Source: Maricaulis sp. (GTDB lineage: Bacteria > Pseudomonadota > Alphaproteobacteria > Caulobacterales > Maricaulaceae). Taken from it: 64,000 bases of DNA. Numbering within the stretch: the first letter of the stretch is position 1; each line of letters begins with the position of its first letter. The DNA is taken from NCBI RefSeq assembly GCF_017643475.1, contig NZ_JAEPNI010000004.1:186001-250000 (forward strand), in the 5' to 3' direction. Of the stretch, positions 55,411 to 62,338 are shown piece after piece. The notes under the pieces were generated by a model that made no database searches, was not told the DNA's origin, and worked only from the letters and a program-made list of their open reading frames with translations. The position numbers and the translations under genes are program-made.

Positions 55411-56124
55411 TTATTCGACAGGAATGCCGCAGAAGGCTGCGATTTCCTTCCAGGGCAGCGCCGCTGACAGAATGCCTACTGCGACTATGGCCAGGCCGGT
55501 CACCGTTCGCATGCCCGGGCGAGCCGCAAAACTCATCAGCTTGGCGGCGCCAAAGGCGGACGCCAGGACTGCGGGCAAGGTTCCTACGCCAAAGCCGGCC
55601 ATGATCTCGGCGCCCTACCCTGGCGAACCTGAAAGCATGGCGTAGAACAGCGCGGCATAGACCATCCCACAGGGCAACAGTCCCCAGAGGAAACCAGCGA
55701 GCACCGGTGTGGCTGCGCTCAACTTTCCGCCCAGTGGATTTTGCGCGATGCGTATCAACCCCGCGCCGACGCGATCCAGGCCAGCGAGTGCCGGGGCCCA
55801 GCCCGCGACGGAGAGGCCGATATAGACCAGTGTCACTGCACCGGCCCAGCGCAGGATCATGATACCTTCGGCGCGATCGGCGTCGAAATAGAACTGGCTG
55901 CCGATGGCTCCCAGCACCGCACCCGCCAGCATATAGGCTGCAATACGCCCGAACTGCGCCTTCAGTATCACTATCCGGCGCTCGTTCTCACTTGCCTCAG
56001 GCGCCAGCGTAAACATCAGACTGGCGGCAATTCCGCTGCACATGCCCACGCAGTGAAGGCTCGAGGCAAAACCCGCGAGCAATCCGCCCAGAATGCTGAG
56101 GTCGGCGAGACCGGCTGGTGGCAT
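55411..56124 (-). pseudogene. SafE/TauE-type membrane transporter, in-frame TAG
   Basis: A frame of about 237 codons: first half 56124-55618 (SSLHCVGMCSGIAASLM, LPCGMVYAALFYAMLSGSPG), then TAG at 55615-55617, and the remainder (GAEIMAGFGVGTLPAVLASA) through 55411. The two parts are in the same frame, and only one base (for example CAG to TAG) separates an intact gene from this one. The HCVGMC motif fits the SafE subgroup found with cbb3 oxidase genes, probably in copper handling. It sits next to the broken cbb3 locus. Read-through is not supported by any visible signal. Confidence 0.85.
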
Positions 56125-56238
56125 GTTCTTTCTCCTTGGCCCCGACCTTATGTCCCGGAATAATCACAAAAAACGTGTGGCGTAATGACGCGCAGATTTC
56201 ATACGCCTGTCGGGCGAATATGAAGGGGGAGGATTAAC

Positions 56239-57009
56239 ATGGTTACTTTGAAGAAAGTCCGCCGGGACGCACCCTGGAAATGGCTCAAGCTGGGCTTCGA
56301 GGATCTGCGGCGCGCACCGCTGGTCTCGATCAGCTATGGTCTCATCTTCGTGCTGGGCGGCCTGGCCATCAGCGGCACGCTGTGGGCCTTTGGTGGCGAG
56401 GAGGCCATTCCGGTCGCGCTAAGCGGCTTCGCGCTTATCAGCACCGCCCTGGCCATCGGCATCTACCAGGTCAGCCGCGCCTTCGAACGGGGGGAGAAAC
56501 CACGATTCCGCGTGGTGATTTCCCGCTATCCCTCTCGCATCTCCCAGGTCAGCTTCATGAGTGTGATTCTGGTTATGCTGCTGCTCTGGTTCCACATCGC
56601 CCAGACCCTGCGCATCGTGCTGGCCCCGTCCGGGCCGTTCCATCCGGGCGAGTTCATCCAATTCATGCTGACAGCCCCCGAGGGCATGACCTTCATGATC
56701 ATCGGCACGATCACCGGCGCCATCCTGGCGGCTTTCGCCTTCACGATCTCCGTGCTCTCCTTCCCGATGCTGATCGATCAGGATGTGGACGCTGTCACGG
56801 CCCTGGTCGCGAGTTTCCGCTCGGTCCTTGCCCAGCCTTTCGTGATGATCACCTGGGCCTGGCTCATCGCTTTCATGGTTGTTGCGGGATCAGCCGTCTT
56901 CACCATCGGCCTGGCCTTCACCTTCCTATGGATCGCGCATGCGTCCTGTTATGCCTACAAGGATTTCGAACCGAGGCCGGAGCCATCGGCCAGCGCAGCA
57001 AAAAGCTGA
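56239..57009 (+). CDS. DUF2189 family membrane protein
   Basis: A 256-residue protein with six spans. The start (VRRDAPWKWLKLGFEDLRRAPLVSISYGL) is characteristic of DUF2189. In alphaproteobacteria such genes often lie near cytochrome oxidase genes. It is divergent from the broken SafE gene. A strong GGGGGAGGATT ribosome-binding site precedes the ATG. Intact, unlike most neighbours. Function unknown. Confidence 0.88.
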   Translation: MVTLKKVRRDAPWKWLKLGFEDLRRAPLVSISYGLIFVLGGLAISGTLWAFGGEEAIPVALSGFALISTALAIGIYQVSRAFERGEKPRFRVVISRYPSRISQVSFMSVILVMLLLWFHIAQTLRIVLAPSGPFHPGEFIQFMLTAPEGMTFMIIGTITGAILAAFAFTISVLSFPMLIDQDVDAVTALVASFRSVLAQPFVMITWAWLIAFMVVAGSAVFTIGLAFTFLWIAHASCYAYKDFEPRPEPSASAAKS

Positions 57010-57013
57010 GATG

Positions 57014-57038
57014 AACGCCCGGCACAGCCGGGCGTTTT
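57014..57038 (+). terminator. rho-independent terminator of the DUF2189 gene
   Basis: AACGCCCGGC (57014-57023), loop ACA, GCCGGGCGTT (57027-57036), then TT. It lies 5 bp after the DUF2189 stop. ccoS on the other strand ends 10 bp beyond it. Confidence 0.85.
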
Positions 57039-57047
57039 CATTCGCGC

Positions 57048-61114: not shown

Positions 61115-61229
61115 GATAACCTCGACACATGCAGATCCGGCCAAGCTAGACGGTTCAGGCGCAATCGTCACGAGAGAAAGCGAGGGTTGAAGCGCCTCGG
61201 GTTAAGGGGCTCTTGCGAACGGAAGCAAA

Positions 61230-61257
61230 AGGCCCGAACCGTCGGGGCTTCGGGCCT
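61230..61257 (-). terminator. terminator-like hairpin
   Basis: AGGCCCGAA (61230-61238) pairs with TTCGGGCCT (61249-61257); on the minus strand it is followed by TTTTGC. It could stop transcription coming from the ccoN side before it reaches the hydrolase gene. Confidence 0.65.
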
Positions 61258-61294
61258 GATAATGAGAGGCGGGCGCGGGTTTTCCGGCGCGATC

Positions 61295-61386
61295 TGTCCC
61301 CCGTCAGCGCCTATGGCACAGATTTGAGGTTGTTATTTAGGGAGGGTTTGGGTTTCGTCGTAGTGACGAAGGAACGAAGATGAAGA
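61295..61386. mobile_element. partial copy of the IS left end
   Basis: About 91 bp that match bases 57745-57835 of the complete IS with a few substitutions (around TTATTTAGGGAGGG): left end TGTCCCCCGTCAG through the orfA start ATGAAG. It is in the same orientation as the complete IS. Homology stops abruptly where ccoN sequence begins. It is a relic joined to the 3' side of truncated ccoN. Confidence 0.85.
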
Positions 61387-62338
61387 TCAGGGACCAGAAG
61401 TGGATGATGGAGAGGCGGTAAGAATAGACCGGACGCTGTACCCGCTTCGGAATGAAGTAGTACATGATGCCAAGGAAACCTGCCGTCAGGAAGAAACCAA
61501 CCGCGTTGTGGCCATACCACCACTGGGTCAGAGCGTTCTGCACACCGGCCATCAGCGAGTAGCTGCGCGAGCCGAAGAAATCGACCGGCATGGCCAGGTT
61601 ATTGACCACGTGCAGTACCGCGATCGTCAGGATGAAGGCGAGGTAGAACCAGTTGGCCACATAGATGTGCGGCTCCTTGCGCTTCATCAGCGTGCCGAGG
61701 AAGACCAGGAGATAGGCGACCCAGACCACGGTCAACCAGAGGTCGGCATACCATTCCGGCTCGGCCTATTCCTGCCCCTGGGTGATGCCGATCAGATAAC
61801 CGGACGCCGCGATGACGATGAAGAACTGATAGCCCCAGAAGACGAACCAGGGCCAGATCCCGCCGGCAATGCGCGTGCGGCACGTCCGCTGAACGACGTA
61901 GAAGGATGTCGCGATCAGCACATTGCCGCCAAAGGCGAAGATCACCGCTGACGTATGCAGCGGGCGCAGGCGACCAAAGCTCAGAAAGCCGAAATCATCG
62001 AAATTGAGGATCGGGAAGGCCAGCTGGGCAGCGATGATGACACCAACCAGCAATCCGGCAACGCCCCAGAAGAGCGAGGCGATGACGCCTGCCTTGACGA
62101 TGTCCTCGTTATAGTCGGACTGATCCGTGATCACACCGCCGCGCGCCGCAGCGCCGACGACCAGGAAAATGCCCGTCAGGAAGCCGCCGAGAATCAACCA
62201 GGACTGCCCTTTCATGGCAGCATCCGGCGCAAAGGCAGCAGCGAAGAGCGCCCAGAGCGCCCCTAAAATTGTAATTAGACCAACGCCAGCAAGGTTTATA
62301 TCAAACCCGCTACGCTGGAGAGATTGCGACGAAGTCAT
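61387..62338 (-). pseudogene. ccoN: cbb3 oxidase catalytic subunit CcoN, nonsense and 3' truncation
   Basis: The frame begins [18 protein letters not shown] and gives CcoN up to GITQGQE, then TAG at 61763-61765, and continues [16 protein letters not shown] to HFWSLIF, where the IS relic cuts in. One base (TAT or TAC to TAG) separates this codon from the usual Tyr in the family. About 317 of some 530 residues remain: haem-ligand histidines in [15 protein letters not shown] and [13 protein letters not shown] regions survive but the C-terminal third is gone. CcoN is the haem-copper catalytic subunit; this copy cannot make a working oxidase. Confidence 0.92.

Follow-up and report, generated by a model that had tools for sequence, protein, structure and literature searches.

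We identified in a Maricaulis species a cbb3-type oxidase and copper-delivery locus that has very probably been inactivated, and recently so. The window, a stretch of 64,000 nucleotides (bases 186001-250000 of one contig), comes from a genome of 3.26 Mb in 9 contigs that is 99.99% complete, and it carries syntenic remnants of the locus that is intact in relatives. Gene order, neighbors, and surviving codons are the same as in the ccoNOQP-ccoGHIS loci of other Maricaulis (L026-L038, L072, and L073), from which the present locus differs by the absence of 6.2 kb and by point lesions in three genes. The initial annotation had already described a decayed cbb3 and copper-delivery locus with a SafE-type transporter broken by a TAG, a doubtful ccoS start, a CcoI-type ATPase that lost its 5′ end at an insertion sequence (IS), a ccoN with a TAG and a 3′ loss at an IS relic, no ccoO, ccoP, ccoQ, ccoG, or ccoH, and a remaining DUF2189 gene. 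All these features were found, at slightly shifted positions; their number of origins is revised and their age estimated below.

Results

In relatives, the genes are ordered SafE–DUF2189–ccoS-I-H-G-P-Q-O-N. Among 17 relatives' ccoN loci compared for synteny, with domain names checked on one relative (L037), 12 carry this whole set in one stretch. Of the other five, one is without SafE, three are interrupted by contig ends, and the last, which belongs to a different genus of the family, runs from ccoN to ccoS with SafE and DUF2189 outside the stretch. A TIGR00780 search recovered full-length ccoN in 16 of the 18 other genomes of the genus, and the family cut-off was exceeded in 47 of the 61 genomes searched, our own included. 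The intact locus that the initial annotation proposed to look for in close relatives is thus present, and syntenic, in most of the same-genus genomes examined. The two genomes without a full ccoN are G002 and G007, the latter 69% complete. G002, at 99% completeness, gave no match for ccoN, CcoI, or DUF2189; it apparently represents a second and complete loss of cbb3, which indicates that such a loss is tolerated within the genus.

The SafE/DsbD_2-type membrane protein gene (55414..56124, minus strand; PF13386, 4e-31) occupies the same place as in relatives and is interrupted by an in-frame TAG at 55615-55617. This is codon 170 among the 237 examined, and an amino acid (G, A, T, Q, or S) is encoded at this site in all 14 aligned relatives. 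The adjoining transaldolase gene (tal) itself terminates on TAG, within one codon of the ends of its relatives, so that the TAG stops in the locus are to be taken as real. In ccoS (57051..57206, minus strand; TIGR00847, 7.9e-20), the start codon is lost, with AAG at 57204-57206 in place of the ATG that all 14 relatives have; another ATG, in frame and six codons into the gene, could still act as a start. Elsewhere in the window, a gene at 51453-52923 lies in two frames, split near 52000 at seven consecutive A by either a real frameshift or a sequencing error; it codes for a FAD/pyridine-nucleotide oxidoreductase whose N-terminus is phosphatase-like (Pfam, first piece only).

Of ccoI, a 3′ stub remains (57206..57744, minus strand), recognized by homology to relatives. 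It corresponds to residues 549-726 of 728 in L037 numbering (aligned at 57209-57742), the last ~180 codons, and is without the metal-binding and E1-E2 domains (L037 residues 33-91 and 244-421). The homology stops at 57744, where the stub joins the left end of the IS. A separate CopA-like ATPase is still encoded in the genome. Two contigs of another, fragmented genome, L067 and L069 (G034 contigs 114 and 79), each start 91 bases before the C-terminal part of a P-type ATPase (residues 553-726), close to the start of our ccoI stub; these breakpoints are probably contig ends.

The 5′ part of ccoN (61378..62338, minus strand) comprises about 320 of 548 codons. It covers positions 2-251 of 474 of TIGR00780 and scores 374.7 bits, below the cut-off of 583.15 for a full-length CcoN. 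On the solved Pseudomonas CcoN (3mk7), it corresponds to residues 8-247 of 474, and the later copper and heme histidines presumably lie beyond the part that is kept. The remnant is also interrupted by a TAG at 61766-61768, where a Tyr is found in 16 of 16 aligned relatives, and its homology breaks off at 61378, within the IS relic. No consistent FNR-type box was found upstream of ccoN in the 17 relatives.

The ccoI and ccoN break points lie 6,173-6,215 bases apart in all 11 relative loci measured, with ccoO, Q, P, G, and H between them, and 3.6 kb apart in the window, with unrelated DNA between. By this comparison, the ccoI truncation, the ccoN truncation, and the five absent genes are best read as the two edges of one ~6.2-kb loss that starts at ccoI codon ~548 and stops near codon 320 of ccoN. 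At the right-hand joint, eight bases (61378..61385), AGATGAAG, are common to the IS end and to the ccoN of relatives. As only 36 of 200,000 joints had at least 8 shared bases when the IS and the L037 operon were joined at random in a simulation, this joint points to a deletion via short-homology recombination.

The initial annotation took the lesions to have arisen in several independent steps and to reflect loss of function across the pathway. The whole pathway is indeed lost. However, the losses in ccoI and ccoN and of ccoH, G, P, Q, and O share one gap of ~6.2 kb and do not count separately, so that the independent evidence consists of the three additional point lesions in SafE, ccoS, and ccoN, all of which may have accumulated neutrally once a single structural event had occurred. 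Two of the three rest on one base each, and such single-base lesions could be sequencing errors. The minimal history comprises an insertion, a deletion, and three point changes, with the point changes possibly secondary.

In place of the missing ~6.2 kb stand three pieces: an IS3-type element, a segment of 2 kb that carries an esterase-like gene, and 92 bases of left end from an element of the same type. The full element (57744..59255, plus strand; orfA at 57830-58204, orfB from about 58200 to 59181) was assigned to the IS3 type with 180 bits on NF033516 (cut-off 160); its transposase scores 192.9 bits on the IS481 profile, below the cut-off of 224 for that profile. Among the 40 of 47 candidates scored, it is the sole full copy in the genome, and the sole other match is the relic joined to ccoN (61294..61385, plus strand), which is 96% identical over 92 bases. 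The two lie in the same orientation and flank the ~2 kb, with the outer right end gone. They differ at 4 of 92 bases, three private to the relic and one to the full copy when compared with 11 other copies, and are therefore not fresh twins. This speaks against the simplest composite-transposon story and leaves room for recombination between IS copies. No target-site duplication was seen at the IS, nor, by eye, a consistent one in other copies. The same IS type occurs in 295 plasmid records, mostly at 60-90% identity. With two candidates scored per genome, 53 of the 348 genomes searched in the order carry it, the best match (98%) being in G010 of the same genus. A copy in a further genome of this order (G300 contig 13; L084 and L102) is interrupted at base 84/85, the point up to which our relic is IS sequence only; this coincidence may be due to chance or to a weak spot before orfA.

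The 2-kb segment (59256..61293) is present in a single copy in the genome. Its main gene (59636-61171, minus strand) codes for an esterase-like alpha/beta hydrolase (PF20434, 6.8e-25) for which no full-length homolog was found in the 18 same-genus genomes; near full-length homologs at 45-50% occur in 3 others of the 348 genomes of the order (our own included). Fourteen plasmid records match part of the hydrolase and none reaches 80%, and a contig search with the hydrolase for the origin of the segment gave no confirmed match. Beside the right end of the IS, a small open frame (59261-59632) has no Pfam match at 0.1, no plasmid match, and one negligible PHROG match (0.093).

The genome encodes no second cbb3 set that our searches could detect, which answers one objection foreseen in the initial annotation. 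COX1 was found at two places only, the cbb3 wreck and one intact aa3-like gene. The latter is best classified as CtaD/CoxA, with 641.8 bits on a 462-residue piece against a whole-protein cut-off of 670.75, and its neighbors, by eye, look like COX2 and heme-O synthase genes. FixO (CcoO, PF02433) had no match in the genome, the same profile matching in 2 of 14 genomes used as a control, and CydA had none either. The ccoI-to-ccoN DNA of relatives (L037, 6.7 kb, across ccoP) matched the ccoI stub only among the 40 of 57 candidates scored; CcoP is without a gene at the locus and without a DNA match elsewhere within that search.

As judged from ccoN, ccoI, SafE, and DUF2189, the remnants show no clear excess of change and are conserved about as in relatives, so that the loss looks recent. 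For ccoN, pN/pS is 0.189 between the remnant and relatives and 0.167 among relatives, versus 0.221 and 0.176 for the intact control tal. Mean pN to relatives is 0.100 for the ccoN remnant, fourth highest of 17 rows, and 0.135 for tal, highest of 15; the ccoI stub (0.200), the SafE pieces, and DUF2189 each rank second highest. Our genome lies on a longish branch. Private changes at otherwise invariant columns number 2 in ccoN (one being the TAG), 4 in ccoI, 1 in SafE, and 5 in tal. DUF2189 has 8 such residues, tied highest of 16 rows, which may hint, weakly, at relaxed constraint. Long-standing decay does not agree with this conservation, which argues for a recent loss instead.

The DUF2189 membrane protein gene (56239..57009, plus strand; PF09955, 4.7e-28) has been orphaned with its frame open, and its nearest named matches are on two Maricaulis metagenome-assembled contigs (67%). 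Among 60 relatives, DUF2189 occurs in 35 of the 47 with a full ccoN and in 1 of the 13 without (Fisher p 1.9e-5, kinship ignored). In 28 of these 35 genomes the gene is no more than 10 kb from ccoN, in one it is 17 kb away, and in 6, some of them fragmented assemblies, it sits on a different contig. The twelve genomes with ccoN and without DUF2189 indicate that it is not required everywhere.

Discussion

The combination of comparative genomics and examination of the joints allows a sequence of events to be proposed for this locus. An IS would have inserted into ccoI, and an IS-flanked segment would have come to sit there, through either a composite-transposon-like insertion or IS-IS recombination. 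One deletion, running from base ~84-92 of the right-hand IS copy across the operon into ccoN, would then have arisen by recombination at the 8 shared bases. The cell would be left with its aa3-type oxidase alone and would have lost high oxygen affinity, and the remaining accessory genes, with no client left, would be decaying.

It is possible that the structural losses were instead separate, with ccoI hit by one IS, ccoN or its vicinity by another, and the middle later lost or exchanged by chromosomal recombination. The two IS copies are not identical, and the 2-kb segment, having no full-length homolog in the genus, came from elsewhere, both of which would fit such a history. However, it needs more events than one insertion and one deletion, and the joint on the relic side, with its 8 shared bases, is of the kind typical of a deletion; on balance we find it rather doubtful, without dismissing it. 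An assembly artifact, with chimeric joints at the IS and at the relic and an operon that is whole in the strain itself, is improbable. Both joints do touch IS sequence, the reads cannot be checked, and a frameshift in a gene 4 kb away falls on seven consecutive A, a typical place for sequencing errors. Nevertheless, the searches by COX1, by FixO, and by operon DNA (40 of 57 candidates scored) found the operon nowhere else in an assembly of 9 contigs and 99.99% completeness, a single full IS copy turned up among the 40 of 47 candidates scored, and the point lesions are substitutions outside homopolymers that are concentrated in the same pathway.

Two further readings carry very little weight. 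The pieces could have come from a duplicated cbb3 operon whose intact copy lies at another site in the genome, which we consider highly improbable: for the assembly this is refuted, as there is no second ccoN, no FixO, and no other operon DNA among the 40 of 57 candidates scored, and the position and flanks (transaldolase, DUF2189, and SafE) are those of the single locus of relatives. As both nonsense codons are TAG, one could also imagine that TAG is read through or recoded, with SafE and the ccoN part still produced. The chance of this is close to nil; we rejected recoding on the TAG end of the transaldolase, no tRNA gene lies within the window, and ccoN would be without its second half regardless. 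We thus retain the recent inactivation of a single locus as the best explanation.

The DUF2189 gene adjoins the cbb3 locus, is nearly confined to genomes with ccoN, and is open here with unusual changes at conserved sites. On these grounds, it is a serious possibility, somewhat short of a probable one, that it encodes an unrecognized cbb3 accessory membrane protein involved in assembly or copper handling. If so, the window would show the succession of steps by which a cbb3 module and its unknown helper fall apart. The co-occurrence of DUF2189 with ccoN offers a testable lead on a family of unknown function.

From a biological perspective, the Maricaulis genomes examined mostly keep cbb3 beside aa3, and this species very probably represents a natural and recent cbb3 knockout with its joints still readable. 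It predicts a measurable drop in oxygen affinity compared with congeners, and the locus shows which genes decay once the oxidase goes. IS insertion and deletion are a familiar route by which a terminal oxidase is lost. The present case is unusual only in how freshly the wreck is preserved; it is ordinary gene loss caught early. Our literature search on Maricaulis cbb3, on ccoI with TauE and cbb3, and on IS-hit ccoN pseudogenes found no report of this locus among the papers listed.

Finally, parallels exist in two known systems. The marine roseobacters described in one study all have aa3 and only some have cbb3, oxygen affinity being reported as higher in those with cbb3 (PMC9426536). The CHUG roseobacters described there keep aa3 and are in part without cbb3, which is the state that we predict for our species; the operon there is simply absent in some members, whereas here the wreck is still in place (PMC9426536). 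In Campylobacter jejuni, deletions of ccoI or ccoS are reported that, each alone, nearly abolish cbb3 activity (PMC8267372). The same two copper-delivery genes are hit in our genome. The C. jejuni mutants are engineered deletions in cells where the oxidase is present, whereas the Maricaulis locus points to a natural loss of the oxidase and its assembly genes together.
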